This document shows positions 17,442 through 58,466 of a stretch of DNA of 64,000 nt, piece by piece. Location of the stretch: positions 1 to 64,000 of the forward strand of contig NZ_ATYJ01000014.1 of NCBI RefSeq assembly GCF_000427625.1, given 5' to 3'. A program made the position numbers and the translations under genes. This stretch comes from Methylobacter luteus IMV-B-3098. GTDB lineage: Bacteria; Pseudomonadota; Gammaproteobacteria; Methylococcales; Methylomonadaceae. Each line of letters opens with the position of its first letter. The stretch's first letter is position 1. The notes under the pieces are model-generated. The model searched no databases. It was not told the DNA's origin and worked only from the letters and a program-made list of their open reading frames with translations.

Positions 17442-17456
17442 CCATCAAAGACCTAC

Positions 17457-39503: not shown

Positions 39504-39592
39504 TTAAGCGGCATATTTTACGTGTTTGTCTAGGAAGAAGCTCCGAACCCGTTCCGGCGACTTTTCCAAATAAGCCATATGTGGTTCTGTTG
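39504..39592 (-). pseudogene. C-terminal tail of an alpha/beta hydrolase cut by IS6
   Basis: The minus-strand frame from the IS6 end reads HMAYLEKSPERVRSFFLDKHVKYAA-stop (given here in parts: HMAYLEKSPERV, RSFFLDKHVKYAA). G-H-M-x-Y-L-E-x-P-E-x-V is the usual end of alpha/beta hydrolases, with the catalytic His in HM. Only ~29 codons remain; the rest was removed at the IS6 end (39593). Confidence 0.6.
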
Positions 39593-40389
39593 CGTTAATT
39601 TCAGTCAGCCACAACTTGGGCTATTCCAAACTGGTTTTAGGCGGCCAATGAATAAAATTGTGCTGTGGCAGACAGATTTTGATTATTGTCAGAAGCCATC
39701 TGGCCTTTCTTAATCATGTGCATCAGTTCAATGCCTTGCAAAGTGATTCTGGCCGAACGAAAAGATTTGAAGCCGAGCATCGGTCGAATAATGCGTTTGA
39801 TGGCCCGGTGATCCTGCTCAATCAAATTGTTCAGATACTTGTTCTGGCGGATCTCGATCTTGTAGCCGGTTTCCTCCTGAAGCGCCTCGATAGCGGCCGT
39901 GTTGGCGCCGCTCTTATCGATGGTGACCTTGTCCGGCAGGCCGTGCTGCCGTACCGCTTTCCTGAAAAAGCGCAGAGCGGCCTGCTTGTCCCGGTGGGCC
40001 GTCAGTAGGAAGTCGATGGTCTGGCCATCCCGATCGACGGCACGATAGAGATAGCGCCACTGGCCCTTGATTTTGATGACCATCTCGTCCATCCTCCAGC
40101 TCTTGCCGACTGAGTGTTTCTTGCTTTTGCGGAAAGCGGCCTCCAGCTTAGGCGTGAACTTCTGAACCCAGCGGTAAATACTGGAATGGTCGACTTCGAC
40201 GCCGCGCTCCGCCATCATCTCCTCCAGGTTCCGGTAGCTCAGCGGATAAGCCAGATACCAGCGGATACAGATCAGAATGATGGCTTTTTCGATGCGGCGG
40301 CCTTTGAAGTCGATCATGTGGTTCGCTGTGCAATTCATTGGGTGCTTAGCTTACCCGACAGCGGCCTATCAATCTAACGCAACAGAACC
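39593..40389 (-). mobile_element. IS6-family insertion sequence, copy 2
   Basis: A 797-bp element with GGTTCTGTTGCGTTA ends, inverted relative to copies 1 and 3. No 8-bp duplication is seen in the flanks (…CATATGT and CTAAAAAAC…), so deletion next to the element is likely. Confidence 0.93.
39637..40338 (-). CDS. IS6-family transposase, copy 2
   Basis: This 233-aa protein has the same fold as copy 1 with D in WRMDEMVIKIKGQWRYLYRAVDRDGQ, D in VTIDKSGANTAAIE and E in YLNNLIEQDHRAIKRIIRP. It is closest in the C-terminal part to copy 3 and to the deleted relic at 3933. It is full length and probably active. Confidence 0.93.
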   Translation of the reverse strand: MNCTANHMIDFKGRRIEKAIILICIRWYLAYPLSYRNLEEMMAERGVEVDHSSIYRWVQKFTPKLEAAFRKSKKHSVGKSWRMDEMVIKIKGQWRYLYRAVDRDGQTIDFLLTAHRDKQAALRFFRKAVRQHGLPDKVTIDKSGANTAAIEALQEETGYKIEIRQNKYLNNLIEQDHRAIKRIIRPMLGFKSFRSARITLQGIELMHMIKKGQMASDNNQNLSATAQFYSLAA

Positions 40390-40591: not shown

Positions 40592-40622
40592 TTTATGCTA
40601 AATTATTAAATGGAGGAACTTG

Positions 40623-41412: not shown

Positions 41413-41429
41413 TTAGGATTAGAGTAACA

Positions 41430-41640
41430 AGGGTGCATTTAAACAAACGACAGAATTGTTTCATAGGATTTTTTGTAACGTCATAGCTGACGTGGCTTTG
41501 AACCCATTTCTAACAACCCCATTTTAGCCCGATTTTCAGTCCGAATTTTCGAGAAGTCCATAATTGACGCCAAGCCTTGTCGTCTATGGGTTTTCTCAAA
41601 ATGCTATGGGACTTTAATGTCGTTTGTTTAAACGCACCCT
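41430..41640. mobile_element. MITE-like element with 23-bp terminal inverted repeats
   Basis: AGGGTGCATTTAAACAAACG (continuing ACA) at 41430-41452 and its inverse at 41618-41640 match with a single mismatch. The 211-bp interior has no coding capacity. No obvious target duplication is present in the flanks. The parent transposase is not in this window. Confidence 0.75.
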
Positions 41641-41929: not shown

Positions 41930-42725
41930 GGTTGTGTCGCAAAGTTTATCGGTCTGGGGTAATATTTTGCAATTTCTGAATTAATCGATGATCAGTTTTA
42001 GCGGCACCCAATTTCCCAAAGATGTTATTTTGTACGCGGTATTTTTCTACGTCAGATATGGTGTTTCGTATCGAGATGTGGAAGAAATATTTGCCGAACG
42101 AAACGTCAAGGTTGACCACTCGACACTGAATCGCTGGGTAATAAAATATTCTTCATCATTAGCTTTGGCTGCAAAGAAAAATAAACGAGCTGTTGCCACT
42201 TCGTGGAAGATGGATGAGACCTATATCCAGGTCAAAGGCCAGTGGGTCTACTTATACCGTGCTGTTGATAAGTTTGGCGACACCGTTGATTTCATGCTCT
42301 CCGAGAAACGCGATGAAGCCGCGGCCACTGCATTCTTTAAGCAAGCCATAGATAACAATGGCTTTCCAAAGAAAGTAGTCATGGACAAGAGCGGCGCAAA
42401 TTATGTTGGACTAGAAAATCTTAACTTCCTGCTGATGCTGGCCGGAATCATTAGTTTTGTTGAAATTCTTCAGATCAAATAGCTGAAGAATCTGATTGAA
42501 CAGGATCACCGCTTCATCAAGAAAATCACAAAGCCTATGATGGGTTTCAGAGCATTTCATTCGGCCAAAGCAACAATCGATGGCATCGAAACGGCACATA
42601 TGATCCGAAAAGGACAGTTGTCAGATGAGAACATTCCTGCCTACAAGCAATTCATGGCCTTAGCAGGATAGTCTTGCCTCCAGGGTAGGCATTCTCTGAC
42701 TTTAGCTAAACTTTGCGACACAACC
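41930..42725 (+). mobile_element. IS6-family insertion sequence (GGTTGTGTCGCAAAG type)
   Basis: A 796-bp element with perfect 19-bp terminal repeats (GGTTGTGTCGCAAAGTTTA and its inverse). It is nested in the start of another IS6-type relic. Different terminal repeats set it apart from the GGTTCTGTTGCG copies 1-3. Confidence 0.92.
41988..42671 (+). pseudogene. IS6-family transposase with in-frame amber stop
   Basis: The frame opens MISFSGTQFPKDVILYAVFFYVRYGVSYRDVEEIFAERN and contains D in WKMDETYIQVKGQWVYLYRAV and D in VVMDKSGANYVGLE. It stops at TAG 42480-42482, where relatives read QIKY(L)…. After the stop the same frame continues LIEQDHRFIKKITKPMMGFRAF… (the catalytic Glu) to a natural stop at 42669-42671. 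One point mutation of Tyr to amber therefore removes the third catalytic residue. Inactive unless suppressed. Confidence 0.9.
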
Positions 42726-42749: not shown

Positions 42750-43991
42750 TTACCTCTTACCCTGCATCCGGCCCCATTGAGGTACAGGCGGCGTTCCGTC
42801 CTGCATGAATCTAACCGGCACATAATATTTGGCGTATATCGTCTCGAGCTCAAGGAAAAGATGGTAAAGATCCACGCCGACATACTGATTGCCAATGATC
42901 TCGACGAGTGCAAGATGCAGGTGGGGCGAAATGCCGCCAAATGATACAACCGTACCAAGAAAATCGCCGCGCGCGACTTGTGAATTAACCCCAATATATC
43001 CTGGAACGTTCGTAATGTGGGTATAGAAACCACCCATCATATTATTAGAGTGTCTCATGAAGATTTGGGCGCCGTAGACGCCTCCATGATCTTGAGCCGG
43101 GTTATGTGGGGTGTACCTCGTCACATAACCATCAAATGCGGCGTACACCGCTGTGCCCGTTTGGGCGCCAAGATCCATCCCATACTGGATGTACCAATTC
43201 GGCCCTTGGTGGCCTCCTTGATTCGGTCCACCGTATCCCCTCGTGAATCCGGTCGGATCCACCGAGAACTGCATTTCCACATCGAATGCTGCTCTAACGT
43301 CGAGGGCTCTTTCGGCTGTGGTGTCGGCCTCGAGTCGGCACACAAGACCAAAATCTTCCTTTGAGGGTGCTGTTCGCGCCGGCCACAGCAACTCGCTTGG
43401 ATCGAGTCCCAGTTCTTCGACCAACGCAGCATTATTGAACAGCTGCTGATTACGGTCATTTCTGACCTTGATTGTCCCAACATCGGGATTGAATCGGCAT
43501 TCAGTTGCTGCGTCCGCCCATCGGCGCTCACTAACGTATGCCTGAAACCGTGGAAAATTGAAAGCTGGGCCCATCCCCCATGCCATGCTCAGTAGTCCGA
43601 GTTGCGCGTCTGCGGGCCAGTTTTGAAAGTCTCTGAAGTGCGCTCTACGCTCTAAGTATCTCTCCATCTCGAAAAGCTTGGAGAAGATAAGGTCATCGAT
43701 GGCGGCATCGGTCAGTCGTAGAGATGTAATGTTTTTGAACGCACCTCCCCCAAGCTGGGACAGATCCGTCCTGAGCTTCACTAAATCCCACGCATCATCG
43801 ATTTCATCAATGGAGGCGGTATCGCCAGTATTCTGGTCATACCATGGCAACGCCTCAGCCGTACTGCGTGGCTCAATAATGTTTCCCATTCCTGTTGTAA
43901 CAAAGCTTCTCGTATCCAAGTACATGAACGGAAGGCGGCCTTCGAGCGGATGATTGAATGCTATCCAGGTGGAATTTACGCTTTCTCGCAT
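42750..43991 (-). CDS. GH24-type lysozyme fused to an M23-like domain
   Basis: This 413-aa protein has two wall-hydrolase-like domains. N-terminal: HPLEGRLPFMYLDTRSFVTTGMG has E17, D26 and T32, spaced exactly as E11, D20 and T26 of T4 lysozyme, followed by a helical body (WPADAQLGLLSMAWGMGPAFNFPRFQAYVSERRW). C-terminal (~260-365): YGMDLGAQTGTAVYAAFDGYVTRY and SPHLHLALVEI resemble the LytM/M23 core with D273, H325 and HLH (H357, H359), but the first zinc ligand His is Q269. The lysozyme half should be active on peptidoglycan; the M23 half may be a binding domain. No signal peptide is visible. AGGAG precedes the ATG. It is the last gene of the neprosin cluster. Confidence 0.8.
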   Translation of the reverse strand: MRESVNSTWIAFNHPLEGRLPFMYLDTRSFVTTGMGNIIEPRSTAEALPWYDQNTGDTASIDEIDDAWDLVKLRTDLSQLGGGAFKNITSLRLTDAAIDDLIFSKLFEMERYLERRAHFRDFQNWPADAQLGLLSMAWGMGPAFNFPRFQAYVSERRWADAATECRFNPDVGTIKVRNDRNQQLFNNAALVEELGLDPSELLWPARTAPSKEDFGLVCRLEADTTAERALDVRAAFDVEMQFSVDPTGFTRGYGGPNQGGHQGPNWYIQYGMDLGAQTGTAVYAAFDGYVTRYTPHNPAQDHGGVYGAQIFMRHSNNMMGGFYTHITNVPGYIGVNSQVARGDFLGTVVSFGGISPHLHLALVEIIGNQYVGVDLYHLFLELETIYAKYYVPVRFMQDGTPPVPQWGRMQGKR

Positions 43992-44088
43992 ACAGTATTC
44001 TCCTATTATGCTAATTGGTAATTGCGGTCGATGCAGGCATTGACTGTGTGTTGTAAATTAGGCAAACAGACCGCATATTTCTCATATT

Positions 44089-45801
44089 TCAAGAGCTGGG
44101 AATGACGATTAGGACGGGCGTGGGCATCTGAAGTCCCTTCGTTATTCGGCAAGCGTTTGGTACTGGAATGTACGTACAATCACATGCCAGAAATTCTTTA
44201 TCATGCGTACCAGGCAGATCCTCATTGGGAATAAAATCTATTTTGCAATCAATCGATTGTCCTGTGGGACATCTATGTCCCATCTCGGTACAGTTATTTA
44301 TACATTGAATCCACTCGGAACGTGAGAATCCATGAGGTGGCGCCCTTGATGAGCCTTTCCATTCTGTCCTTTCAGGCTGTATCCCTCCACAGGTTCCATT
44401 TTCTTCCTTGGATGTTTCCTGTATCTCAACAGGATCCGCGATTAAGGCCAATGCAGGTAATTCACCGTGATCAAGGGACATAAATTGGTCTACTATGCCA
44501 GCCGACAATCTTAGGCTTAATCCCGTCGTATTTGATGGATTCACACTGTGACGAGAAACAAACGTTTCGGCTTTTTTCGTCTGTAGAAGCCTTAAAGGCT
44601 TAATTAAGCGAAAATCTGGAATTATAGAAAAACCGGCATTATTTCTCTGTACCGTCAAGGTTAAAATACCATCCCTATTCTGACTATTGCCGGTAGAGGT
44701 AGCTTGGGTGACGATCGCCTTGAACTGAAGCGGTTCGCATAAGGAAGGTGATGCCGTGCCGTGCTGACAATTTCCTAATTTAGTGACAAAGAATTGAATA
44801 AACGGATTGCCTGTATTACCTTTAGCAAAATTGAAATTGAAAGTCGTCTGTATTGATATTGGTGGAGTTTGGAAAACGCCAAATCCGTCATTGGCGAATA
44901 CTTTCAAGCTCATGTCTTCATCATATGTAATGATGTCAAGCTTATCACCTGGTTTATCACCCTTTGCATCATTGGGATCGAGTACGCCGAGCAAAAGCGT
45001 TGGTGCACCGCCTGCACCAACAACTTTCTGAATATTTCTGAAATTGCCATCACCGGAGTTCTGCAAGAATATGATTGATGATCCTCCTTTGATCACCAAA
45101 TCAGTTTTGCCGCCATCCCTGAATCTATCAGAGGCTATCATGGCTTCTGGTTGGAAGTTATCGAGGGAGATGGGAGGCGATGGTTCAAACACGCCATTAC
45201 CATTGTTGTGCAGAATGTTGAGTATCCCATTGGCTGTAGCGATGGCAATATCGAGAGTGTTGGAACTTCGAAAATGGCCTATTGCCATTGCCACGGGTAC
45301 TTCATCGGCTGCTAGCGGAAAAATGGGATCGCGCACAGGCATGAAATGCCCTTGTCCATCGCCGCGGAAAACTCTGAGCCTCGCGCTACGGTTGAATTGA
45401 TCAAGGCCACTGATGATCACAATATCCTCATTATCATCGCCATCGAACTTTCCGGTAGCGATAAGGCTGGGATTCTTGCCTACTGGTGTAGGAGGCTGTC
45501 CTTCAGGGGGAACTGCCGGTGATCTAAAACAGCCATCCTGATTGCTCAATAGCACGGATAAGGCCTCCTCATCGCGCCCCTTGTCTCTGATCGTGCTCAC
45601 ATAAGCAAGATCGCGCACCGGGGCGGTTGACAACTTATTATGGAAATTGCCTGAAACAAACAGGCGCGGATTCTTACCCAACCGCGTTATGGCTACCCCT
45701 GGCTCGGCCGTGCACTCTGGTGCGGCGGCCAGTGCAGAGCCCAGAAAAAACACCAGCATTGGCGCAGCCAAGAAAGTGCTGATTTTATGATGCAAAACCA
45801 T
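44089..45801 (-). CDS. Secreted FG-GAP/VCBS-repeat protein A
   Basis: This 570-aa protein from ATG 45801 (AAGGAGGAAGCT upstream) has a Sec signal (LAAPMLVFFLGSALA-AA). Repeated blade units follow: GKFDGDDNEDIVIISGLDQFNRSARLRVFRGDGQGHF, IGHFRSSNTLDIAIATANGILNILHNNGNGVFEP, DRFRDGGKTDLVIKGGSSIIFLQNSGDGNF, DKLDIITYDEDMSLKVFANDGFGVF. These are FG-GAP/VCBS beta-propeller repeats with calcium-loop-like D-x-D/N patterns. A C-terminal region with Cys residues (CIN…CTEMGHRCPTG…CKIDF…CDCTY) may be disulfide-linked. It is exported, presumably binding or adhesive. It is a tandem paralog of the next gene. Confidence 0.85.
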   Translation of the reverse strand: MVLHHKISTFLAAPMLVFFLGSALAAAPECTAEPGVAITRLGKNPRLFVSGNFHNKLSTAPVRDLAYVSTIRDKGRDEEALSVLLSNQDGCFRSPAVPPEGQPPTPVGKNPSLIATGKFDGDDNEDIVIISGLDQFNRSARLRVFRGDGQGHFMPVRDPIFPLAADEVPVAMAIGHFRSSNTLDIAIATANGILNILHNNGNGVFEPSPPISLDNFQPEAMIASDRFRDGGKTDLVIKGGSSIIFLQNSGDGNFRNIQKVVGAGGAPTLLLGVLDPNDAKGDKPGDKLDIITYDEDMSLKVFANDGFGVFQTPPISIQTTFNFNFAKGNTGNPFIQFFVTKLGNCQHGTASPSLCEPLQFKAIVTQATSTGNSQNRDGILTLTVQRNNAGFSIIPDFRLIKPLRLLQTKKAETFVSRHSVNPSNTTGLSLRLSAGIVDQFMSLDHGELPALALIADPVEIQETSKEENGTCGGIQPERTEWKGSSRAPPHGFSRSEWIQCINNCTEMGHRCPTGQSIDCKIDFIPNEDLPGTHDKEFLACDCTYIPVPNACRITKGLQMPTPVLIVIPSS

Positions 45802-46109
45802 AGCTTCCTCCTTATGTCTTTTGAAAAAGCTGTGAGGGACGGCGCACCTGAATGTGGAACGGTACAAATTCACCTGTTCAAACATACTTCACCAGCACCA
45901 TGCCCTGCCCCATTCTGGTAAACCTGCATGTCAACAAAGGCGTTAAGCCGTCTCTTGCCGCCTTCCGGACAGCTCAAAGATAAAACTACATAAATTCTGG
46001 CGCTCAGCGGTGCACAGAGGTGGTGCACGGGCAAAAGCTTGACGGTTACCACTGACACGGATTCTGGCCATGTAGCGCAAATTCTTTTCGGCAGAGGCCT
46101 CCATACCCC

Positions 46110-47789
46110 TCACCTGATGTCAAAAACCAGCATGACGGGCGTTGACAATTCCTTTGTTATCTCACATGCAGGTGGAGGGAGAGGTTGTTCTATGCAATCA
46201 CAATACCAACCCTCACTCGAATGTCCTTCACAAAAAGGTTTTTCTCCAAAGCCACAGCTACACTCTTCCATACATGCATGAAGAGTTGGATAACGAGTTA
46301 GAGAGTGGGCTGCAACAGGTCGAAGCAGCCCTTCTATTGGTCCCGCTACGGGCTGTATCCCCCTGCAATTCCTATCTATGATCGTTTTCTCAACGAAGTT
46401 CGTGATCAAGGCCAATGCGGGCGGTAGTAGTACGCCACCAGAAGCCATAAACTGGTCCGCCACACCAGCATGTGCCCTTAGTCTCAGCGAGTGATGCCGA
46501 CCATCGGAGCGTATTAGATCAGCTTTTTTCACCACTAATGGGAGCGACGGCAAGGCGAATGCGAATGGCTTAAGTGTCGGGCGCACGGAAATACCATCGT
46601 TATTGCTCTCCAGAGTCAGTATGCCCCTTATGGTGACTGCCTTGAGCCGAAACGGTTCACATGAGGAAGGCGATGTCGAGCTATGCGTCTCAGTACAATC
46701 GCCGGAATTAGCAACAAAGAACCGGGCAAACTGACTGCCCTTGCTATCAGTGTTGTCCTGATGACCAATGTCGGCGTCAACAAAACTGAAATTCTCTTTC
46801 TTGATATTTTCTCCTCCCTTCCATAGTAGGGATTGCGGAGGATTGAAAGCACCTGAGCCATCATTGACGAACACTTTCAAGGTCATATCTCGATCAAAGG
46901 TAATGATGTCAAGCTTATCGCCTGCTTTATTGCCCATTGCATCATTGGGATCGAGCACGCCGAGCAAAAGCGTTGGCACATTGCCGGCACCAGCAATAAC
47001 CTGCCTATTCGGAAAAGTGCCGCTGCCGGAGTTCTTCAAGAACATGATCGCTGATCTCCCTCTGATCACCAAATCAGTATTGCCGCCATCCCTGAATCTA
47101 TCCGAGGCTACTATGGCCTCTGGCCCAAAATTGCCGAGAGAGATGGGCTGTGATGGTTCAAACTCCCCATTGCCTTTGTTGAATAGAATGTTGAGTATTC
47201 CTTTTGAGCTAACGATAGCAAGATCGATAGGCTTATTAGGCATGCTGGAGCTCCGGAAGTGACCTATTGCCATTGCCACAGGTACTTCATTTGCTTGGAG
47301 TGGAAAAAAGGGAGACATGGGCGTGAAATGCCCTTGCCCCTTGCCGCGAAAAATTCTGAGCCTTGCACTACGGTTAAATTGATCAAGGCCATTGCCGATC
47401 ACAATATCCTCATTTTTGTCGCCATCGAACTTTCCGGCAGCGATAAGGCTGGGATTCTCGCCTACCAGTGTAGGAGGCTGGCCTACAGCGGGAGCTGGCG
47501 GTGATCTGAAGCAGCCATTCTGATTGCTCAATAGTACGGATAAGGCCTCCACGGTGCGGTCCTTGTCTCTGATTGTGCTCACATAGGCGAGATCGCGCAC
47601 CTAAACGCCGGGCATCTGGTTCTGGTTGTGGAAATTGCTCGAAACAAACAGGCGCGAGTTTTGACCCAGCCGCGTTATGGCTACCCCTGACTCGGGCGTG
47701 CACTGCGGCGCGGCAGCCAGTGCAGAGCCCAGAAAAAACATCAGTACTGGCACAGCCAAATAAATGCTGATTTTATCATGCAGAATCAT
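46110..47789 (-). pseudogene. Secreted FG-GAP/VCBS-repeat protein B, interrupted by an amber codon
   Basis: The gene starts at ATG 47789 (AAGGAGGACGCT upstream) with signal LAVPVLMFFLGSALA-AA and is strongly similar to the 44089 paralog. After NFHNQNQMPGV an in-frame TAG at 47601-47603 occurs, and the same frame continues VRDLAYVSTIRDKDRTVEALSVLLSNQNGCF to 46110. The paralog has NFHNKLSTAPVRDLAY at this point, so the amber lies exactly in a linker. Repeats match the paralog (GKFDGDKNEDIVIG, LDLAIVSSKGILNILFNKGNGEFEP etc.) and the C-terminus is Cys-rich. Either a fresh mutation or translation restart at the next GTG (which would lack a signal peptide). Confidence 0.85.
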
Positions 47790-47853
47790 AGCGTCCTCCT
47801 TATTCCTCTCGAGCAGATTTCGGTTATACCCTCATGTCAGACACCACCTGTTA

Positions 47854-50800
47854 TCAGTCCACTCTTATGGTATCGGCATAGACGAGCCTACTGGAGGCTC
47901 TGTGGGCTTCCCCACTGGCTCCCATGAGCCATGCTTGGCCGTCCGGACAGTCATTCTCCGGAAAGTGCTCGAATTCCTGAATGACGATGCGGTATTGTTT
48001 CGATCCTGGAGAGGCTGGCAACAACACATATCCAGTCCAAAGTCGCCCTTGAGTTAGAGGCCCATCGGGAATGGGCTGTTGTTGTTGCGCCGCATTCGGC
48101 AGGGTCCAGCCTAAGTTATCGTCCCAATGTTGGTGCGCCATATCGCGTTCCTCAAGGATTACCTCGACAGTGGGCTGGACCGGTGCCGGTGCGAGAGTTT
48201 CGGCGTCAGTCGAAGCGGCACGGATTGCGAGCGCGCTGACAGTTATGGTGAGCTTGCGCTTATCTGGATGACTGGGGCTTGGGCTGAAGGAAAGAGTTGC
48301 CATACGATCGGGGGCCAACTGATGCATGCCGGCATGCACCACAGGTGAGACGTGCATGCCATTGAGCGAATTTTTCTGATAGCGGGCCAGCGCCAGCTCC
48401 TTAAAAGGGAAATATTCGGAGCCAACATTGAATATGATATCGCTATACCAGAGTCCTCGCTCCTCATCAAAATGGACGTCGAAAGGATATATCTTGCCAT
48501 CATACTCTGAACCAGGAGCCCTGGCAGGACTGCCATTAGGTTTGATCGCGTTAATTGCCGAGGAAGGTGTTGCTAAGATTGGATCACGGCCCCACCTGCT
48601 AAAGCCTGGTGCTTGTGAATCAATGACAGCCAGTTTTTCATCTTTCCCGGACGAATACCAAGTCGCGCCGAGATAAACTCTTAAGCCTCCTCCATACCGT
48701 GCACTCTGGATCACGTTTGATTCCTCATCGATCGTCCAGCCAAATGACGGGATAATATATATAATTTCAGGAGCGGCGGGTTTGTCCGAACTGAGAATGG
48801 CAATGGTTTTTGGCTTAGAGGTCTGAATGAGATTGTTGGGATCATTAGTGATGCTGGCTGGAAAATACTCGCGGAAGCGGGTTGTAGCAACCAGTCGATA
48901 AGTTACGAGGCGATACTTGGTGTCGCCGAACTCATGCCTCGCTGAATAGCGCTTTGAAGTAGCCGCCATGTCTGGTGCGAGAAACTCAATGCGCTTTGCT
49001 CCATCATACTTCGCGATCGGCATAACGTTTGAAGGTGGCGATACAGGAATCGTGGTAGGTTCCGGCACGGATCCAGCAGAGCAATTCAGTACCGTGGTCG
49101 GGATTTGCACTTCGAAGACATGGGTATTGATCATTGATGTCTTCTCGCTAGATGTCTCCTGCTCCTCCCACTCTGCGAAGAGGTCGACCTTTGCTGTGCT
49201 ACGAGCATGAATATTGAAGGCGCCGGAGATATAGGCTACCGTACCATGTGGAAACCTGCGGCTATCCAAACGCATATCCCCCGCTTCAATGGGCGGCTTG
49301 ACCGGCTTCTGTACCGCATGCACCAATGTTACCTTTCGGGGTGGAGTAAGCATGGCAAGTGCTCCATGTTCGGCCATATTGAGAAAGTGCTTTTCATCGA
49401 TCGATTCAGAAACCTGCTTGCGCCACCAATCATGAAGCCCGTGCTGTTCGGCATCTTGTCGTAGTGGGTAAGAGCCGATCCAAATCGTGCACATCTGACT
49501 AGGGGCGAGGCGCACCGTCAATACCCGCTCTGCGTTGTTCCATTTAGGCAGGTCCGGCACTACATCGCCTGCGATCTCGTCAAGTCGTAACCGGAACGGC
49601 AAGCGTTCCGGCCATTTGTCGATTGGCCCGAAATGGATCTTGGTCAGAAAACCCAAGTCGGTCTCTACCTGCGCATTGAGGGGTTGGACATCCAACCACT
49701 TCAGCTCACCATCGTCGTTGAGCTCTCCAGTTGTGCCAGTTACGTTGGAGCCTGGCAGCCCAAAAAGAGCGGCACCGTATGCTAACGGGTCCGGCAGATA
49801 GGGGATCCGAAGCTGTTCCTCGTAGTGGACATTATAGCCGCTGTCGGGGCCTTGCAGTTTCACGAAGCGAATGCCGCTCGTAACCGTTTCGCCAGTTCCT
49901 AAATCAATATTGGGGAAATACTCGCGCTTGCCCGTATCGAGGTTGGTTACGAAATTACTCTCGAAGCTGCCATTCTCTCTTCGGCAGATATTGTAGTAAC
50001 GGCCTGGATTTCCGTTCCGGCCGAATGCTCCGTCCAAAAGTCCGTGGTTCTCGATCATCATCAACGCTTGCTTTGGCGGAGCGACGTGGCGTTCGTTCAC
50101 ACCTTTGTACTTTGGATCACCAAGACTGGCTGCGTAAGCTGCCGCAGTCGATCCATTACTGCGGATCACCATCACATCAATCGATTCGCCCTCGGTGAAC
50201 ACTTCTCTCGGGACCAACTCCGGCGCACTGATGGGTTCGAACCGGCGGTAGCGGAAATCTTTCGGTTCTCCGAGCAGAATAGGCGTTCGGCTGCCTTGGG
50301 CTTTTAGCGCTTCAACAACGGCATCGGCTTCTTCAATAGTAGGGCCATTTCCGGCCAGATCCACTGTGCGCGCCCGTACTTGATAATAACTGCCGAATCG
50401 CAGTTGCGGAAGACTGTAATCTGGCGGTTTGAAATCGATCTCCAATTGCGGAAGCCCAACCAAGCCATGAGAATATGCTGGTTCAGCTTGTGGCAACATA
50501 TCAATCGGATTGGCTGGTGGTGATGCCGATAGGCTCCATCCTTTCCAGTGAAACAATGATTCCGGCGCATAAACCGGGTTCGGCTCGTCTGCCGATAGCA
50601 AGTTGGGGGCGTGGCTTTGGACTAATGTCGGTTGAATAAATCCTTCATCAGTACAGTTGATCCGTGTGAATTGTCCTGTGCAGGGATGTTTGTAGTCATA
50701 GGTCCCGATACGTTTGTGTAATGACAGCCACGGTATTTCTGATCCCTGACCGAAACTGTCAAATTGAAAATTAGCGGGGAAACGGCGGATGTCGATGCGA

Positions 50801-52209
50801 TAGCCACGCACGAGGTCTTCCGCAAACAGATTTGTAAATTCGTTGTTTCTTTGCAAGGCATTTTCATGATCCTCAGCCCTACGCATACCCGCGATCAATG
50901 TGGGTACATTATCGCTACGCACTAACGCTATGCCACTCGTGCGGATTGATGGCGCACCTGTCTCATCAGTTTTGTCAATGGGATGGTCTGAGCGATACTC
51001 CTCTGAGACGATTGCCTCAATTGTATTCATGAGCTTAATGGCTGCTCCATCTGTATCGATTTGTATCAGATCATACTGATGCGGCGAACCTAAATTCAGC
51101 AAACCACCGATGATCTCCAGATCATGCGCTGCTGAGGCCGGCTGAGCATCGTCGTCTGCATGTCGGGGAGCGGCGGCGAACATGGGAAACGGTAATGCAC
51201 TGCCGGAGGATCGGAGATCAAGAAGATATTTCGTATTCGGAGTATAGGCATCGTTGCCAATAGGAGCGACTCTAAGTGTTTTGACGTCACCATATATTGA
51301 TATGGGGATCTTATCAGCGTCGACTTCGATGTCAATGACCAATCCTAATTTCCTCAACAGATGCGGATACTCGCCCAAAGCTGATAGTATCTGATGAAAG
51401 TCAATCTTTTTCGAATCATCGCTCGCGTCGGAGAGTTGTGGTCCATTTGAATTGCGCCGCGATGAAACTCGGGCATGAAACGCAGCGAGCTGGGCGAAGG
51501 CTGAAGCCGGGTTCTCGGTTCTGGGAATGATCGGTACAGCTTCCTGTGCACCACTGCGAGCAAGTGCGCTGGCAACTTTAATTGCATGAAAAAGTTTTTC
51601 CTCAAATGATATAGTGGAATCGCGGCGCAGAAGATTGTCACTGAGTATCCGGTGCATCGAGGCAAGCTCATCCTGGGACAAATTTTCCAGATTATTATCT
51701 AAGCGGTCAAAGTTAAGTGTCCCGGTATTTGGAACAATTGACTCATAGATGGGTTGAAAAGCGCGTTTCAATGTTTCGCTACCTACCAGAAGATAGGGTG
51801 ACGCTTTACCTACGTCGCCGTACCCTTTGTAAAGGCTCTCTACTATTTGATTTGCGGCGTACGAGCTGTAGGCTTCATGCCGGACCTGGAACTCATGCGA
51901 GCGTACAAAGATTCTTTTATTGAATAATGCCTGCCAAAATTCTGACTTCGGTTCCGGATCAGTGACGATCTTGGTCTCCACAGGGTTTGCGACATCGTCC
52001 TCTACGATAAGTTTAATAGCAAATGATGGAGCCTGTAATCGCCCTGGCCAATCGAGAAAATCATAAAACTCATCCAAATCCCCTGTCTGCTGAGTTCTAT
52101 CAAATCGCAGTCGCGGCGAAATAAAGACAGACAGCTTGAGTACGTGTCTAGAATCTTCACGGTGGATTCCATTCGGCAGAACAGTCCAGATAATCTGTTG
52201 ATTTACCAT
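47854..52209 (-). CDS. Very large protein of unknown function (1451 aa)
   Basis: It starts at ATG 52209 (MVNQQIIWTVLPNG), preceded by TAGGAGGATTC. The longer frame (52269) reaches into the upstream gene. No signal peptide or membrane helix is seen. Visible features: a beginning with IIWTVLPNGIHRE…LKLSVFISPRLRF; a mid-region FGSYYQVRARTVDLAGNGP (~residue 610) like an Ig/fibronectin-type strand pattern; GLLDGAFGRNGNPGRYYNI; NVHYEEQLRIPYLPDPLAYGAALFGLPG; and a late region SEYFPFKELALARYQKNSLNG…VVHAGMHQLAPDR. The composition is soluble, beta-rich and rich in Pro. I do not recognise a family and suggest no function. It lies 19 bp after the 960-aa gene, so they should be made together. Confidence 0.75.
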   Translation of the reverse strand: MVNQQIIWTVLPNGIHREDSRHVLKLSVFISPRLRFDRTQQTGDLDEFYDFLDWPGRLQAPSFAIKLIVEDDVANPVETKIVTDPEPKSEFWQALFNKRIFVRSHEFQVRHEAYSSYAANQIVESLYKGYGDVGKASPYLLVGSETLKRAFQPIYESIVPNTGTLNFDRLDNNLENLSQDELASMHRILSDNLLRRDSTISFEEKLFHAIKVASALARSGAQEAVPIIPRTENPASAFAQLAAFHARVSSRRNSNGPQLSDASDDSKKIDFHQILSALGEYPHLLRKLGLVIDIEVDADKIPISIYGDVKTLRVAPIGNDAYTPNTKYLLDLRSSGSALPFPMFAAAPRHADDDAQPASAAHDLEIIGGLLNLGSPHQYDLIQIDTDGAAIKLMNTIEAIVSEEYRSDHPIDKTDETGAPSIRTSGIALVRSDNVPTLIAGMRRAEDHENALQRNNEFTNLFAEDLVRGYRIDIRRFPANFQFDSFGQGSEIPWLSLHKRIGTYDYKHPCTGQFTRINCTDEGFIQPTLVQSHAPNLLSADEPNPVYAPESLFHWKGWSLSASPPANPIDMLPQAEPAYSHGLVGLPQLEIDFKPPDYSLPQLRFGSYYQVRARTVDLAGNGPTIEEADAVVEALKAQGSRTPILLGEPKDFRYRRFEPISAPELVPREVFTEGESIDVMVIRSNGSTAAAYAASLGDPKYKGVNERHVAPPKQALMMIENHGLLDGAFGRNGNPGRYYNICRRENGSFESNFVTNLDTGKREYFPNIDLGTGETVTSGIRFVKLQGPDSGYNVHYEEQLRIPYLPDPLAYGAALFGLPGSNVTGTTGELNDDGELKWLDVQPLNAQVETDLGFLTKIHFGPIDKWPERLPFRLRLDEIAGDVVPDLPKWNNAERVLTVRLAPSQMCTIWIGSYPLRQDAEQHGLHDWWRKQVSESIDEKHFLNMAEHGALAMLTPPRKVTLVHAVQKPVKPPIEAGDMRLDSRRFPHGTVAYISGAFNIHARSTAKVDLFAEWEEQETSSEKTSMINTHVFEVQIPTTVLNCSAGSVPEPTTIPVSPPSNVMPIAKYDGAKRIEFLAPDMAATSKRYSARHEFGDTKYRLVTYRLVATTRFREYFPASITNDPNNLIQTSKPKTIAILSSDKPAAPEIIYIIPSFGWTIDEESNVIQSARYGGGLRVYLGATWYSSGKDEKLAVIDSQAPGFSRWGRDPILATPSSAINAIKPNGSPARAPGSEYDGKIYPFDVHFDEERGLWYSDIIFNVGSEYFPFKELALARYQKNSLNGMHVSPVVHAGMHQLAPDRMATLSFSPSPSHPDKRKLTITVSALAIRAASTDAETLAPAPVQPTVEVILEERDMAHQHWDDNLGWTLPNAAQQQQPIPDGPLTQGRLWTGYVLLPASPGSKQYRIVIQEFEHFPENDCPDGQAWLMGASGEAHRASSRLVYADTIRVD

Positions 52210-52228
52210 GAATCCTCCTATCAAAAAT

Positions 52229-55111
52229 TCAGGAAAATGCTCTGCAGTACAGCCCCCATTGCAGTTCATTCATCGTGTCTGTGAAACTTGGCGGCCTGGT
52301 TTCTACGGCTGCCAAGTCAAAGCCGATCAGCGAATCTGTAGGAGGATCTCCGAAACCTTTGATCCTTTTGGATACTTCAAAGGATTGACTTATGCTGAAG
52401 AAAATGATCTTCACGCTGATCATGAAAAAGCCTTTACCAATCAATATTTGACCGTCGTACTGCAGCCCGATGTAGAATTCGATCGAAACAGTGATTAGTC
52501 CTGCCACATCAACATAACCGCCAAATCGTAGATGCCCGGAAACCACAGTGTTTCTGCTGGGATCCACTGAGACAAAAACGCCGGCGAATACATAAACGGC
52601 TCCACGCACGATGTCCAAGAGGTTGATGGATACGATTCCCCCGAACTCGATTGCCGCTTCAACCTGAATTGTCGTGTCTGTTCGTACCTCTAGAGCGAAA
52701 TATCCGGTGCCTCCGAACATCGACACGCTCACCAGAAACGGTTTGCTGCGCTCCGATAACGAGAACCGCACTGCAGCTGGCTTTTCGACAAAAGGTAAGG
52801 AGATTGATGATGAAAGTGCGATATTCTCGATGCTTAGGACTCCAATGGCAAACGATGGAATAGCAGCACCGAAATGAACCACAACCCCATCCGGTCGAGG
52901 CTGAATGGCGGGAGCATCGCCAAGGCTATTGGTCGGAAGCAGTTTGCTTATTTTCTCAATAAAGGCGAGGCCACTTTTGAATTCGACGCCTTGAATATTG
53001 ACCTTGAATTCCATTTTCTTGCCACTGCCGGATTTGAACGCAACTTGATTGAAGTTCACAGTCAGTAAATCTTTATTAAATGCTTTAAAATCGAGTCCGA
53101 AATTGTCAAGTTTGCCGTCAACTTCGAAGGTGGCGCCGTCAACACTGAAGGCTGCGCCGGCGGCTCTACCAAGGCTCTTTCTGACCCGCCCTTTGATGAT
53201 CAGCGTCATAGGTCCACTAATTCTGACTAGGGGGGGCGGAAGGTCCATGGATTTGATGTTTGGCTTCCACAAAAATCGCGCTTCGACATCTGCGCCTGTT
53301 TGCACCATCGTCAAGATGGGTCTCGTAGCGACTACATCTGGTTTTTCTATTCGGTCGAATAGTTTTTGGGACTCAGTGACTGGGACATTATCGAGAGAAC
53401 TGTCGATAATTTTTTTTAGGGGAATTGCGCCGAGGAGCTTAGCGTCGCCAATTAATCGGTCAACGTCAATCGAATTACCCTGCAACAAATTATCGACACC
53501 AGAAACAAGACCCCGTATCCGATCCAGACCATCCATGGAGTCGAACTTCGGCGCTGTGAGACCGCCAGCGCGCTCAGCGGGAATCCGTAACTCCGGCATA
53601 TGGCTATCGAATTTTGCGAATACCTGTTTCCTGGTGTCATCTGAAAATCCAAATTTCAGGTAGGGATCACAGAGAGTTAATATCCTCTCTGGAGGCCCAG
53701 AGGCTAAAGATGCCTGTGCAGCCGGAACACTCCCACTTGCACTACCTCCCACGCTGCCCAATAATTGCTCGATGGCGGGAATACTAACCTTCGCGCTCTG
53801 CATGAATGGCAGAAACGGGGGCTGAACCGGGTCATTGGCAGATAATATTTTGATGTCAAATTTAAGCTGTGTCACGGTGAGAGTCGTATCGCCACGAGCG
53901 CTACGGTCATCGGCCAACGCAATACGCTGAGGGGTTAATAATGCCACCGTGTTGTAATTCTTATAGGTATTATAAGCGCTGTTGAGCTTGTTGGAATCTA
54001 CAACATAGCTCTGCTTGAGAAACAACATGAAGAGATCGCAATTGATAATATTCCCGCTGCTGTCCTCCGCTGTGGCTTTGAGTTGGATGGGAGCTCCTTC
54101 GTTAGGAAGATGAATTGGCGGTTGTGGCACGATTCGTATCCGCTTCAGCGGCATCTCGCGGCCCTGGTTATTATAAAAACTTTGAATTTGAGGTTCGTCG
54201 TAACTTATCTCCGCTTCCTCGGGCGTTAGGAAGCTCTCTTTCTCAAGACGAGCATATCCGCCATTGATATCGCGTCTCGTAATTGTTAGCACAGATGCTC
54301 TGTGGCGAAAAGGAAAGAGAAAGCCTTGTTCTACCACCCGTACAAATCGGTCTCGCCCCACTACGGCTTCGTGTTCCCATGTAGGAAGATCTGAAGCGGG
54401 CCAGTCGCTCTTGAGCTGCGCCGAGCTTCCGAGTGCGGTAAGAATGAATTGGGAGGACGCAATACGGTGAGGAGTCGATTGCGTTACAATCTGCTTTCGG
54501 ATTTCCTGACGGATTGTTGATTCATCTGGGGAGAATCTATCCGTCCTGTCTTTCTCATTGTCCACCGCTCTGAAGTGAATACGCCCCGTCCCGTGCGGAG
54601 GGTCGTCTATTCCGAGGCGTGCATGCCAGATCTCGGTCCACTCTATACCGCTCGTGGAATGCATGCCTGGCTGCGGTATCAAGCTATGAAATAGCCGTGC
54701 ATTCGGCTCCGGAACCAGCAACAGTCGGTCAGGAAATTCTATGAAAGTTGCAGGGGTCGGATTTGGTGCTTGCTCGGAAGTCACTGGCGGCACATTTCTT
54801 ATCAGGCCCAGAATACTGTCCACAGTAAATGGAATAGAGCCTATCATTTCCGGAACTTTGAAAGCAATTCGACTAGGGCAGGAAATGAAGGATGCATAAG
54901 GTGGAGGGGGCAATCTTGTGTTTCCACGATTAAATGCCGGTTCTACGATATGCTGTGGAGGGAAACGGACAACAATGAATGCCGGTGCCCCGGTAGTACG
55001 CTTGAGGAACGGATTGGCCACATCTGACTCGTCGAGGGTCAGATTGACAAACTCAAATTGAACATGTAGCAGGTCCTTGGCTCGCAGAAGATTGACAACG
55101 TATGATGACAT
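52229..55111 (-). CDS. Large protein of unknown function (960 aa)
   Basis: It starts at ATG 55111 (MSSYVVNLLRAKDLLHVQFEF), preceded by AGAGGAAAAC. The first half is soluble and Pro-rich (RFPPQHIVEPAFNRGNTRLPPPPYA…IEWTEIWHARLG…RDINGGYARLEKESFLTPEEAE). A segment with SGSVPAAQASLASGPPERILTL follows. The last ~300 residues are strongly alternating hydrophobic (FEVDGKLDNFGLDFKAFN…GYFALEVRTDTTIQVEAAIEFGGIVSINLLDIVRGAVYVFAGVFVSV…GLITVSIEFYIGLQYDGQILIGKGFFMISVKIIFFS), as in an extended beta-sheet or beta-helix. No signal peptide. I do not recognise the family. It sits between the neprosin gene and the 1451-aa gene on one transcript. Confidence 0.75.
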   Translation of the reverse strand: MSSYVVNLLRAKDLLHVQFEFVNLTLDESDVANPFLKRTTGAPAFIVVRFPPQHIVEPAFNRGNTRLPPPPYASFISCPSRIAFKVPEMIGSIPFTVDSILGLIRNVPPVTSEQAPNPTPATFIEFPDRLLLVPEPNARLFHSLIPQPGMHSTSGIEWTEIWHARLGIDDPPHGTGRIHFRAVDNEKDRTDRFSPDESTIRQEIRKQIVTQSTPHRIASSQFILTALGSSAQLKSDWPASDLPTWEHEAVVGRDRFVRVVEQGFLFPFRHRASVLTITRRDINGGYARLEKESFLTPEEAEISYDEPQIQSFYNNQGREMPLKRIRIVPQPPIHLPNEGAPIQLKATAEDSSGNIINCDLFMLFLKQSYVVDSNKLNSAYNTYKNYNTVALLTPQRIALADDRSARGDTTLTVTQLKFDIKILSANDPVQPPFLPFMQSAKVSIPAIEQLLGSVGGSASGSVPAAQASLASGPPERILTLCDPYLKFGFSDDTRKQVFAKFDSHMPELRIPAERAGGLTAPKFDSMDGLDRIRGLVSGVDNLLQGNSIDVDRLIGDAKLLGAIPLKKIIDSSLDNVPVTESQKLFDRIEKPDVVATRPILTMVQTGADVEARFLWKPNIKSMDLPPPLVRISGPMTLIIKGRVRKSLGRAAGAAFSVDGATFEVDGKLDNFGLDFKAFNKDLLTVNFNQVAFKSGSGKKMEFKVNIQGVEFKSGLAFIEKISKLLPTNSLGDAPAIQPRPDGVVVHFGAAIPSFAIGVLSIENIALSSSISLPFVEKPAAVRFSLSERSKPFLVSVSMFGGTGYFALEVRTDTTIQVEAAIEFGGIVSINLLDIVRGAVYVFAGVFVSVDPSRNTVVSGHLRFGGYVDVAGLITVSIEFYIGLQYDGQILIGKGFFMISVKIIFFSISQSFEVSKRIKGFGDPPTDSLIGFDLAAVETRPPSFTDTMNELQWGLYCRAFS

Positions 55112-55214
55112 ATTGTTTTCCTCTAGAGATAACAAAAACTACTGCCAGACTGTTTGCGGCTCGCCTCACTTAACTACCGATCATGTTGAGGCAAGTCGCA
55201 TATCGATTTGCTAT

Positions 55215-56438
55215 TCAAGGCCTACAGTTAATTCCACCTGGTCCTCCGAAATAAATGTAGGTACCCCATGCCGTGGACGAATTATTTTTAACATCAATAT
55301 TGTAGCAACTCGGAAATTGCTGCCCGGGCGTAAGATTCGCCGGCCGAGCCGCTCCACCTACTGGAGTAACGGTAACGTTGCGCTGATATGCAGCATTTCC
55401 CTCCCCAGCTGACGGGAACTTGCCTGATCCCATGGGTGGGAAAGCTCCGATCCCACTAGTCTCTCCACCGAAACCGATGCTACCTGCATTAGATGCCAGC
55501 GGACCGCCCTGAAATAATGAAGTTCGATAATAGCCAACCCACTTGCCTTCGTAATTAAACCACCAAGCATTTCCAGTGAGAAAAAAACCCATCAAATAAG
55601 AGTACTGATCGCCCCCTGGCTGGGAAACCTTCAATGCTCCACCTAAAAGCACATGGCTATCAGGGTGCTGTTCAAAACTTCCAGGACAAAGAAGGTTATA
55701 ACAGGCATGATTGTTAGCAGTAAAGTAAACAAATAAACGTGGATTGTTGTCAAAAGGCGGCGAAGGTGTTCCGACACGCCAACCACATTCTACGGATTGA
55801 TAAGTGACGAAAGGGGCTTGAGGCGACTGATACCACTGTTGCGAGGCTGAGTTCTGGACGCCAAAGACTTGCGGTTTCCAGACATTCACATAGCTGGAAC
55901 CACCTAGGTTATTTATATGTTCTGCAGCTTGAGCCCAGCATTTCACTCCGCTATTACCCCCGCTTCTGAGAAATTGGTGTAAATTGCTGAAACACGAGAG
56001 TTGTTCGAGGGTAGTGCGAATTATGGGAATCGTTCCCTCAGGGCACCACATCTGGTTTCCGAGGCAATCAAAGTAATCGGGATGTAACTGAGGTGGAGGC
56101 ACTTTTCTGTATTGTGAGGTGGGACCTTTGGGCTTTGAATAAGTCTCAACCGGAACAGGTGGCGGCTCGGACGGAGGGGCTAAAAGTTTGTGGCCCGAGT
56201 TTTTTAGCGATGGTTGCTGCTCGGCAGGAATGCAGTCGACAATTTGCCCCTCACTTTCCAGGAAAGTATGGGGGGCCTCGACGCCTTCGTAGAGGTTCAG
56301 TAGGTGTTGTCTCATCTCCTCGAAGGCTTCCGGACTCTCGACCTTGGCTTGCTCCCTTGCCCGGAATTCATCGTATCTAGCGGAATAAAGCGATTGCACG
56401 AAGTCATGAAAAGCCGGAATCGGATTTTGGTTAGTCAT
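55215..56438 (-). CDS. Bacterial neprosin-domain protein (glutamic peptidase family)
   Basis: This 407-aa protein's residues ~165-330 follow the plant neprosin (DUF239) pattern: SSYVNVWKPQV, VECGWRVGTPSPPFDNNPRLFVYFTANNHACYNLLCPGSF, GGDQYSYLMGFFLTGNAWWFNYEGKWVGYY, SIGFGGETSG. The two putative catalytic glutamates E217 (V-E-x-G-W) and E326 (G-G-E) are 109 residues apart, the same spacing as E188 and E297 of Nepenthes neprosin. The upstream CPEGTIPIIRTTLEQL (132-147) matches the neprosin activation-peptide region. No Sec signal peptide is visible, unlike plant forms. Neprosins cleave after proline at acid pH; whether this one does is inferred. AGAGGATATT precedes the ATG, and it is the first gene of the cluster. 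Confidence 0.88.
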   Translation of the reverse strand: MTNQNPIPAFHDFVQSLYSARYDEFRAREQAKVESPEAFEEMRQHLLNLYEGVEAPHTFLESEGQIVDCIPAEQQPSLKNSGHKLLAPPSEPPPVPVETYSKPKGPTSQYRKVPPPQLHPDYFDCLGNQMWCPEGTIPIIRTTLEQLSCFSNLHQFLRSGGNSGVKCWAQAAEHINNLGGSSYVNVWKPQVFGVQNSASQQWYQSPQAPFVTYQSVECGWRVGTPSPPFDNNPRLFVYFTANNHACYNLLCPGSFEQHPDSHVLLGGALKVSQPGGDQYSYLMGFFLTGNAWWFNYEGKWVGYYRTSLFQGGPLASNAGSIGFGGETSGIGAFPPMGSGKFPSAGEGNAAYQRNVTVTPVGGAARPANLTPGQQFPSCYNIDVKNNSSTAWGTYIYFGGPGGINCRP

Positions 56439-56901: not shown

Positions 56902-57118
56902 GGTTCTGTTGCGTTAATTTCTTTCAGGCACAGCTCGGGTGCTACCCATGGCCGGTTTAGGCGGCCAATGAATAAAATTGTCCTGCAGCGGACAAATCTT
57001 GGCTGTCGGCAGAGATCATCTGTCCTTTCTTAATCATGTGCATGAGTTCAATTCCTTGCAAAGTGACCTTGGCTGAGCGAAAGGTTTTGAACCCATGCAT
57101 TGAGCGAACAATCCGTTT
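56902..57118 (-). repeat. 3' relic of an IS6-family element
   Basis: It begins with the GGTTCTGTTGCGTTAATTT end and includes the C-terminal codons of a minus-strand transposase (compare 39593-39800). It is then cut at 57118 by the left end of another IS6 copy. The two ends are of the same type, so this is a nested or cointegrate-derived structure. Confidence 0.85.
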
Positions 57119-57925
57119 GGTTCTGTTGCGTTAGATTGATAGGCCGCTGTCGGGTAAGCTAAGCACCCAATGAATTGCACAGCGAACCACATGATCGACT
57201 TCAAAGGCCACCGCATCGAAAAAGCTATCATCCTGATCTGTATCCGCTGGTATCTGGCTTATCCGCTGAGCTACCGGAACCTGGAGGAGATGATGGCGGA
57301 GCGCGGCATCGAAGTCGACCATTCCCGTATTTACCGCTGGGTTCAGAAGTTCACACCGAAACTCGAGTCTGCTTTCCGCAAAAGCAAGAAGCGCCCAGTC
57401 GGTAAGAGCTGGCGCATGGACGAGACGTATATCAAAATCAAGGGCCAGTGGCGCTATCTCTACCGTGCTGTCGATCGGGATGGCCAGACCATCGACTTCC
57501 TACTGACGGCCCACCGAGACAAGCAGGCCGCTCTGCGCTTTTTCAGGAAAGCGGTACGGCAGCACGGCCTGCCGGACAAGGTCACCATCGATAAGAGCGG
57601 CGCCAACACGGCCGCTATCGAGGCGCTTCAGGAAGAAACCGGCTACAAGATCGAGATCCGCCAGAACAAGTATCTGAACAATTTGATTGAGCAGGATCAC
57701 CGGGCCATCAAACGCATTATTCGACCAATGCTCGGCTTCAAATCTTTTCGTTCGGCCCAAATTACCCTGCAAGGCATTGAGCTGATGCACCTGATCAAGA
57801 AAAGCCAGAGGATTTCTGGCAATAACCAAAATCTGTCCGCTGCAGGACAGTTTTATTCATTGGCCGCCTAAAATCAGTTTGGAATAGCCCAAGTTGTGGC
57901 TGACTGAAATTAACGCAACAGAACC
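57119..57925 (+). mobile_element. IS6-family insertion sequence, copy 3
   Basis: An 807-bp element with GGTTCTGTTGCGTTA ends, inside an IS6 relic. No 8-bp duplication is visible. It is the same kind as copies 1 and 2. Confidence 0.93.
57170..57871 (+). CDS. IS6-family transposase, copy 3
   Basis: This 233-aa protein has D in WRMDETYIKIKGQWRYLYRAVDRDGQ, D in VTIDKSGANTAAIE and E in NLIEQDHRAIKR. Compared with copies 1 and 2 it has MDETYIKIKG instead of MDEMVIKIKG, which is the more common IS6 form. Full length and probably active. Confidence 0.93.
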   Translation: MNCTANHMIDFKGHRIEKAIILICIRWYLAYPLSYRNLEEMMAERGIEVDHSRIYRWVQKFTPKLESAFRKSKKRPVGKSWRMDETYIKIKGQWRYLYRAVDRDGQTIDFLLTAHRDKQAALRFFRKAVRQHGLPDKVTIDKSGANTAAIEALQEETGYKIEIRQNKYLNNLIEQDHRAIKRIIRPMLGFKSFRSAQITLQGIELMHLIKKSQRISGNNQNLSAAGQFYSLAA

Positions 57926-58015: not shown

Positions 58016-58466
58016 TTTAACTGTTGAGGCGACAGTTATTTTGACAATTACCGTAGAGTCTGTCAGCATTTTTGACTCCTCGGATTTAACGAGATTTATC
58101 GTTGATTCACATGTGTTCACCTTACCTTCTAAGCCTAGCGCCCTACCGCGTAATGCTCGCAGTTCCGCTTTACCCTCACGGGTTCGATTTCATCTTTCGA
58201 TTGGGCTACATTGTCAGAGTGGCTTCAGACATCACATTGCTGTTAATGCCTGCACTCCAAGGCTACTGCCGGAGGAACGGCAGGTTTAGTCAGGATTGCT
58301 CCAGCTAAACAATTACTTATACGACTTCACGTCGCACCACGAAGGAATCCTTACGGTCCCCCATTAAAGTCAATTGATCATGCGGGTAATTTAAGCTATT
58401 TTGGGGACGCTTAATTTACCGTAAGTGGGCTTCTTCCTTTGCTACCACAACAGAACCACTGACTGT
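58016..58466. other. Gene-free region with a possible group II intron relic
   Basis: At about 58150-58215 the text TTCCGCTTTACCCTCACGGG parallels TTTCACGTTTACCCTCGCGGG in the 5' part of the group II intron (34008-34030), in the same orientation, but the rest does not align. It is probably the eroded 5' part of another intron. No gene is supported. Confidence 0.35.

Follow-up and report, generated by a model that had tools for sequence, protein, structure and literature searches.

Two giant genes recur as a pair across bacterial phyla

Do the six minus-strand genes at positions 42750 to 56438 of a contig of Methylobacter luteus IMV-B-3098 (NZ_ATYJ01000014.1) form one system? The stretch analyzed, called the window here, is the 64,000 nucleotides (nt) at the start of that contig. 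A first-pass annotation had read these genes as one system, with possible roles in predation, prey lysis or surface digestion, comprising a neprosin peptidase, two giants of 960 and 1,451 amino acids (aa), two exported FG-GAP proteins and a GH24/M23-like cell wall hydrolase. All six open reading frames (ORFs) were present, and the lengths given for the giants were correct, with ATG codons at 55111 and 52209. The short gaps described throughout the cluster were found only between the giants (19 nt); the others measured 103, 253, 224 and 97 nt. A good Shine-Dalgarno sequence had been claimed for every gene, and the giants have Shine-Dalgarno-like sequences (AGAGGA before the 960-aa gene and AGGAGG before the 1,451-aa gene). 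Promoter-like sites (23, versus 18.5 by chance) and terminator-like sites (16, versus 13.8) were near chance. A neighborhood comparison, a check that the first-pass annotation had itself set, went against the six-gene set: only the giants recur, and none of the 89 loci carrying the pair held relatives of the other four genes. The features of the pair are as follows.

52229..55111, minus strand: 960-type giant, 960 aa long and first in the pair; a homologue lies upstream of the 1451-type gene in 85 of 89 loci
52358..52888, minus strand: C-terminal amphipathic beta-meander of the 960-type protein, residues 742-918
47854..52209, minus strand: 1451-type giant, 1,451 aa long and second in the pair; all 89 loci hold a homologue, because the search was built on this gene
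47857..49311, minus strand: C-terminal third of the 1451-type protein, modeled as FN3/Ig-like sandwiches (fragment residues 706-1190)

The 89 loci consist of 80 genome loci, 8 plasmid loci and one stretch of genome G006 (the same place as locus L039). For the genome loci, a profile scan of species genomes gave 238 candidate stretches, 162 of which encode relatives, and the best-scoring 80 of these 162 were kept. The plasmid loci came from a tblastn search of the 1451-type gene against plasmids, which returned 9 records from Streptomyces, Rhizobium, Cupriavidus and Diaphorobacter; the second Cupriavidus record was left out. L039, which is the same place as L015, was left out of the twin-arginine translocation (Tat) counts and of the alignments, and ORFs below 800 bits (1451-type) or 600 bits (960-type) were removed from alignments and trees. 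The 960-type was counted per ORF, with split ORFs in some loci.

The 960-type gene was outside the search criteria, and it was found upstream of the 1451-type gene on the same strand in all but four loci. In these four, the 1451-type ORF starts 300 nt or less from a contig end. Of the 79 intergenic gaps measured, 75 are no longer than 60 nt (median, 19 nt; range, -16 to 318 nt; 19 nt in the window), and the complete pairs have a combined length of about 2,200 to 5,200 residues. Among 398 genomes of the Pseudomonadota, taken as the phylum of the window, the 1451-type occurs in 5, including the window's own, and the 960-type occurs in the same 5. In 61 genomes that share genus, family or order with the window's, the 1451-type occurs in 2, namely the window's own genome and G006, a relative from the same family. 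The two families also share their history. Their distances correlate at r = 0.96 over 77 pairs, a value reached by none of 999 permutations, and the nearest relative is common to both families in 52 of 77 pairs, to which near-copies from Aminicenantes contribute.

The genome loci are spread over 14 named phyla (74 loci), with 6 loci lacking an assignment. Several phyla are scattered on the tree, which has 26 label changes where the minimum would be 13. The window copy sits on a long branch and is nearest to copies from Paenibacillus and Actinomycetota and not to the Methylobacter copy. Transfer of the pair between phyla is therefore likely, although the tree does not prove it. The two giant genes are one two-gene unit, probably moving between bacteria as such. 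A pair that stays adjacent across at least 14 phyla and is absent from the family libraries searched is a large uncharacterized protein system and not a local oddity.

A phage origin was considered and rejected. When 50,697 phage records were searched by tblastn with a 1,471-aa ORF, none matched at E 0.01, and viral contigs yielded no relatives among 3 stretches with the window query and one among 79 with the alignment query. This single relative from the viral collection was also paired.

Longer forms of the pair were found on plasmids. A tblastn search with the 960-type returned 16 plasmid records, 7 of them beyond the first set, and 6 of these 7 were fetched. All six loci carry 960-type ORFs, of 1,161 to 3,311 aa, and in every case a giant gene comes next. 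This partner is recognizable as 1451-type in four of them (Ruegeria, Agrobacterium, where it is split over two ORFs, Sinorhizobium and one Rhizobium), and the downstream giant in the other two (L139 and L144) does not reach E 1e-3 as 1451-type. In L139, L141 and L143, which are on conjugative plasmids of Rhizobiaceae, the giant pair has a SIR2-family, a DpdE and an HsdR-N gene nearby, respectively.

The giants seem undescribed, and the 960-type is predicted to carry an apolar beta-sheet

The first-pass annotation had placed both giants outside any recognized family, and this was borne out by hidden Markov model and profile searches of Pfam, NCBIfam, PHROGs, PADLOC and the Protein Data Bank (PDB). 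Neither giant matched a family over its cut-off in Pfam or NCBIfam, neither had a PHROGs or PADLOC match at E ≤ 1, and neither had a convincing PDB chain by profile, the best values (E 0.072 for PDB and 0.19 for Pfam) being at chance level. Literature searches by six pair protein accessions or by keyword, with most subscription papers and bioRxiv preprints outside their scope, found no paper on the pair. Because neither the family libraries nor the literature gave a match, the pair appears to be new in kind and seems undescribed.

The 1451-type protein begins with MVNQQIIWTVLPNG, a start kept through the family. The 960-type protein of the window begins with MSSYVVNLLRAKDLL, in which no Sec signal was seen by eye, without a predictor. 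When inspected in the same way, the starts of the neprosin, of both giants and of the lysozyme/M23 protein showed no visible signal peptide. The AlphaFold2 (AF2) model of the 960-type has a mean predicted local distance difference test (pLDDT) score of 81.5 and a predicted template modeling score (pTM) of 0.64; for the last 1,190 residues of the 1451-type, these values are 78.8 and 0.68. In the model, the C-terminal sheet of the 960-type (about the last 180 residues) is a continuous beta-meander with porin-like curvature. One face of this sheet is strongly apolar, with a polar fraction of 0.031 across 67 sequences; in the same comparison, the more apolar face of other strand sets has a polar fraction of 0.176 to 0.192. 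Membrane beta-barrels account for nearly all of the 50 VIA rows listed for the 960-type fold. Foldseek searches against the PDB gave E values down to 2e-5 but template modeling (TM) scores of about 0.1, and these matches were not taken as homology. A search of a viral structure library gave weak rows only.

Of 21 960-type proteins with N-terminal extensions, two gave a subthreshold match to TAT_signal in the extension and one to Lactonase; no other Pfam domain was found there. N-terminal propellers in L017 and L063, once thought to link the pair to the FG-GAP proteins, were dropped, being seen by eye in two members only. A 1451-type protein from Streptomyces (L008:8143-13035) carries an inserted peptidoglycan-binding domain, PG_binding_1 (1 of 10 members, E 0.00018), which was placed by reading the alignment.

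Tat signals occur in a minority of 960-type proteins

Export signals were sought with a script for the Tat motif S/T-R-R-x-F/L followed by a hydrophobic stretch. It found the motif in 24 of 88 960-type ORFs, or 22 after L082 and the L073 stretch were discounted, and in none of 88 1451-type ORFs; with shuffled sequences, the yield was 1.95 for each set of 89. Visual inspection showed another Tat motif in L073, one in L075 that the script had missed, and one in each of four plasmid giants. The signals are found in eight named phyla, seven from the phylum assignment and the Actinomycetota (L007). The 960-type protein of the window has no Tat signal, with 9 residues before the conserved Arg. TatC of the window's genome is encoded on the largest contig.

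Among 13,788 small ORFs, only two were TatA-like, and both lie beside the pair. One of them, annotated as tatA on a Sinorhizobium meliloti plasmid (L142:15293-15460), is located 49 nt after a pair whose first protein has 3,052 aa and a Tat signal. The second lies 296 nt before the pair in a Zipacnadia metagenome-assembled genome (MAG).

A putative membrane-active complex, or possibly a soluble assembly

We tentatively favor the view that the pair encodes the two obligate subunits of a giant complex that acts on membranes or hydrophobic surfaces and is exported by Tat in some lineages, a view that draws on sequences, structure models and analogy. The 960-type and 1451-type products would form one obligate large complex, in which the 960-type may be the membrane- or lipid-contacting subunit and the 1451-type a large FN3/Ig-like scaffold or binding subunit. 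Since Tat signals are found on the 960-type and none on the 1451-type, the signal-bearing minority probably exports the complex in folded form by Tat, with the 1451-type as a hitchhiker. In members lacking a signal, including the window copy, the complex would stay inside the cell, or leave by lysis or another route. A bolder version is somewhat doubtful; it sees in the pair a new class of giant two-subunit machine, membrane-inserting or lipid-carrying, horizontally spread across the bacterial phyla, assembled in the cytoplasm, exported in folded form by Tat in some lineages, with a very large partner that lacks a signal as the hitchhiker, and sometimes equipped with its own TatA.

Several points weigh against the favored view. 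We infer the complex itself from the gene sequences, and the genome loci sampled are the best-scoring 80 of 162. About three quarters of the 960-type ORFs, including that of the window, have no Tat signal by the script, and the ORFs that do are partly near-copies (Aminicenantes). In 10 of 81 aligned rows, again including the window's, 20 residues or fewer precede the conserved near-start position, and there is therefore little room for a Tat signal. Complexes of about 260 kDa would be large for Tat. As for the sheet, 2 of 9 apolar strand faces carry polar residues, at 10% and 17%, and another sheet or the partner could cover the apolar face. The Foldseek TM scores are only as noted above, and the VIA matches span one domain, the best at 6.5 Å.

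Burial of the apolar face is what would be expected if the pair formed a large soluble assembly, such as a scaffold, a store or a surface coat. We consider this rather unlikely. Most members lack an export signal, several come from Gram-positive bacteria without an outer membrane (Paenibacillus, Streptomyces and Actinoplanes), and the fold matches are weak overall, all of which would suit a soluble assembly. However, the polar fraction of the face (0.031, versus 0.176 to 0.192 elsewhere), the predominance of membrane beta-barrels in the VIA rows and the Tat signals in eight named phyla argue against it.

The other four genes appear to be passengers on a bracketed segment

The remaining genes of the cluster and the elements around them are listed below.

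55215..56438, minus strand: neprosin-family glutamic peptidase homologue (PF03080, E 9.1e-39), no visible signal peptide
47601..47789, minus strand: signal-peptide ORF of FG-GAP copy 2 (62 codons, TAG end)
46110..47600, minus strand: FG-GAP propeller copy 2, open part only (PF13517, E 1.7e-14)
44089..45801, minus strand: FG-GAP propeller copy 1 with signal peptide, its ATG internal to the listed ORF (PF13517, E 1.5e-11)
42750..43991, minus strand: lysozyme-like N-terminal part and degenerate M23 domain (PF01551, E 2e-10)
39583..40389, minus strand: IS6-family element, left bracket, resembling annotated IS6 transposases of other plasmids
57119..57925, plus strand: IS6-family element, right bracket, inverted repeat with 39583-40389, resembling annotated IS6

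The neprosin identity proposed from the sequence was upheld by Pfam, with 133.5 bits for the neprosin domain (cut-off, 22); the activation-peptide domain, at 31.8 bits, stayed below its cut-off of 39.2. The protein matches the solved neprosin at E 9e-25 and keeps both catalytic Glu positions (E188 and E297). According to our own numbering map, its VECGW and FGGE align with IEAGW and WGGE, and it differs at the positions aligned to the auxiliary H134 and Y136. The catalytic glutamate dyad of neprosin is described in PMC9343461.

Both FG-GAP proteins, annotated earlier as an exported pair, match FG-GAP_3 and are tandem duplicates with 59% identity. Only copy 1 is intact; copy 2 is broken, because an in-frame TAG separates its signal-peptide start from the rest. 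When measured to this signal ORF, the 253-nt gap shrinks to 64 nt. Copy 1 also gave a weak BP39L lectin match (E 5e-4), far below the model cut-off.

For the supposed GH24/M23-like hydrolase, the M23 domain was confirmed at 41.1 bits (cut-off, 28.7), and the Phage_lysozyme profile did not match the window gene at E ≤ 1. The M23 domain has a Gln aligned to the first zinc His (HxxxD) of 3slu and 6muk, a His that we take to be the first zinc ligand of M23. The N-terminal part of the protein is 43.9% identical to a Streptomyces plasmid protein, and a gene region in genome G001, to which residues 16-166 of the window protein correspond, has a Phage_lysozyme match at 7.4e-7.

No relatives of the neprosin, of the two FG-GAP proteins or of the lysozyme protein were found by phmmer in the ORFs of the 89 pair loci (E ≤ 1e-3). 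In later loci, matches to the four were limited to the genes of the window itself and to neprosin and lysozyme homologues that had been fetched separately. Likewise, none of the four has a relative in the 19.5 kb surrounding the G006 pair, the only other pair in the 61 relatives, and near-full-length neprosin, FG-GAP and lysozyme relatives were found among the 61 only in the window's genome, other matches being partial. On a Novosphingobium plasmid (L145:5959-11988), a neprosin 35% identical to the window's is followed by proteins of 1,161 and 412 aa, neither of which matches the pair. The neprosin, FG-GAP and lysozyme genes appear to be passengers collected on the IS6-bracketed segment.

The inverted IS6 pair around the six-gene cluster is 94% identical over 807 nt. 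A third IS6-family copy lies at 36438-37133, the three copies being 87 to 94% alike, and an IS6 remnant (about 56956-57119) and a truncated IS6-like ORF (41988-42482) were also seen. Two domains of group II introns, identified by Rfam as D1D4-6 and D1D4-7, lie at 33866-34080 and 58138-58284; a reverse transcriptase ORF (32178-33764) adjoins the first, and none was noticed at the second.

The contig (C2; 317,982 bp) is plausibly a plasmid, because it stands apart from a largest contig of 4.54 Mb in a genome of 5.03 Mb. A 349-kb plasmid of Methylobacter sp. YRD-M1 has 94 to 95% DNA identity to 6% and 10% of two window queries. Its sequence includes a 95% identical copy of a toxin-antitoxin-like cassette (GNAT acetyltransferase and DUF1778 type) found at 40504-41640 of the window, and it is 94% identical at 14637-17654, a stretch that matches annotations for panB and CTP synthase, which are genes of housekeeping type on a contig that looks like a plasmid. 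Elsewhere in the window, a 608-aa protein with DUF7948 and SBBP beta-propeller repeats is encoded at 37388-39214. A minus-strand run at 58467-63867 includes genes for a signal-peptide-like protein, for a CHASE2 protein and for one of 977 aa without a Pfam family at E 0.001. An Rfam match to the Pseudomonas sRNA P9 at 11591-11670 (58.4 bits) is over the gathering score.

Neighboring genes and other explanations

We further considered the genes around the pairs. The census covered 95 proteins, 88 of them drawn from 137 nearest neighbors within 600 nt and 7 added by hand, some for their enzyme-like look; the latter are a patatin (L010), a DUF4397 protein, an M20 peptidase, an S8 subtilase (L084) and three without a match. 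These neighbors bear on the idea that the pair is a binary membrane-active factor against other cells, delivered with nearby lytic enzymes (neprosin and lysozyme here, phospholipases and peptidases elsewhere). The 95 include two Tle1-like phospholipases, two papain C1 peptidases and two S8 subtilases, one of the latter being the hand-picked one of L084; M35 and S8 peptidases lie near the pairs in L140 and L144, and the occurrence of the pair is patchy (5 of 398 genomes). However, these counts come without a control set, methyltransferases are the commonest neighbors (3 of 95), and none is dominant among the top 25 of 109 families. In a clustering of the 89 loci, no neighbor family recurred across phyla. 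The widest cluster, presumably a photolyase-like gene, covers 11 loci, namely Aminicenantes-type MAGs with one titled Acidobacteria and one uncultured. No immunity gene turned up, although no search was aimed at one, and two parts of the window cluster look degenerate (FG-GAP copy 2 and M23). We therefore regard such a lytic factor as improbable.

A role of the pair in plasmid or genome defense is very unlikely. A SIR2-family gene adjoins the L139 pair, and the HsdR-N and DpdE genes lie near those of L143 and L141, but no PADLOC model matched the 4 proteins scanned, the same lack of a recurrent neighbor family across phyla in the 89 loci applies, and Tat signals are unlike an intracellular role.

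An operon of all six genes that serves predation, prey lysis or surface digestion is hardly credible and was rejected because only the giant pair recurs: the six genes share one strand and the neprosin keeps both catalytic Glu positions, but none of the 89 loci holds relatives of the other four, one FG-GAP copy is broken, the M23 zinc His is missing, no signals are visible on the enzymes, and nothing beyond gene content stands behind predation or prey lysis, two of the supposed parts looking degenerate.

Comparison with known systems

The window peptidase gene is a homologue of neprosin, a glutamic prolyl endopeptidase; it differs in lacking a visible signal peptide and, in our mapping, at the auxiliary H134 and Y136 positions. 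As to the giants, the C-terminal third of the 1451-type is modeled as sandwiches similar to those of FN3/Ig tandem proteins. Lipid transfer proteins (apolipoprotein B and vitellogenin) are among the weak Foldseek rows, and one of nine members gave a subthreshold match to the Vitellinogen sheet (E 0.19), but the giants have no significant sequence or fold match to them. A likeness is also seen with outer membrane beta-barrels (CymA, OmpG and LptD), which make up the best VIA rows and share with the 960-type a long amphipathic beta-meander with one apolar face. In contrast to these barrels, the sheet of the 960-type is part of a multidomain protein, the window copy has no Sec signal, the 960-type is also found in Gram-positive bacteria, and no sequence relation was found.

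With regard to export, HybO/HybC and PaoABC provide a precedent for hitchhiking (PMC4273604). Like these systems, the Tat-bearing minority of pairs consists of co-encoded partners, one of which has a twin-arginine signal. Unlike them, the giant pair is mostly beta and without a redox family match, most members lack a signal, and we infer the co-export. If export by Tat is true, the 1451-type protein would be a very large hitchhiker cargo, and the pair would allow a direct test of the size limit of Tat.

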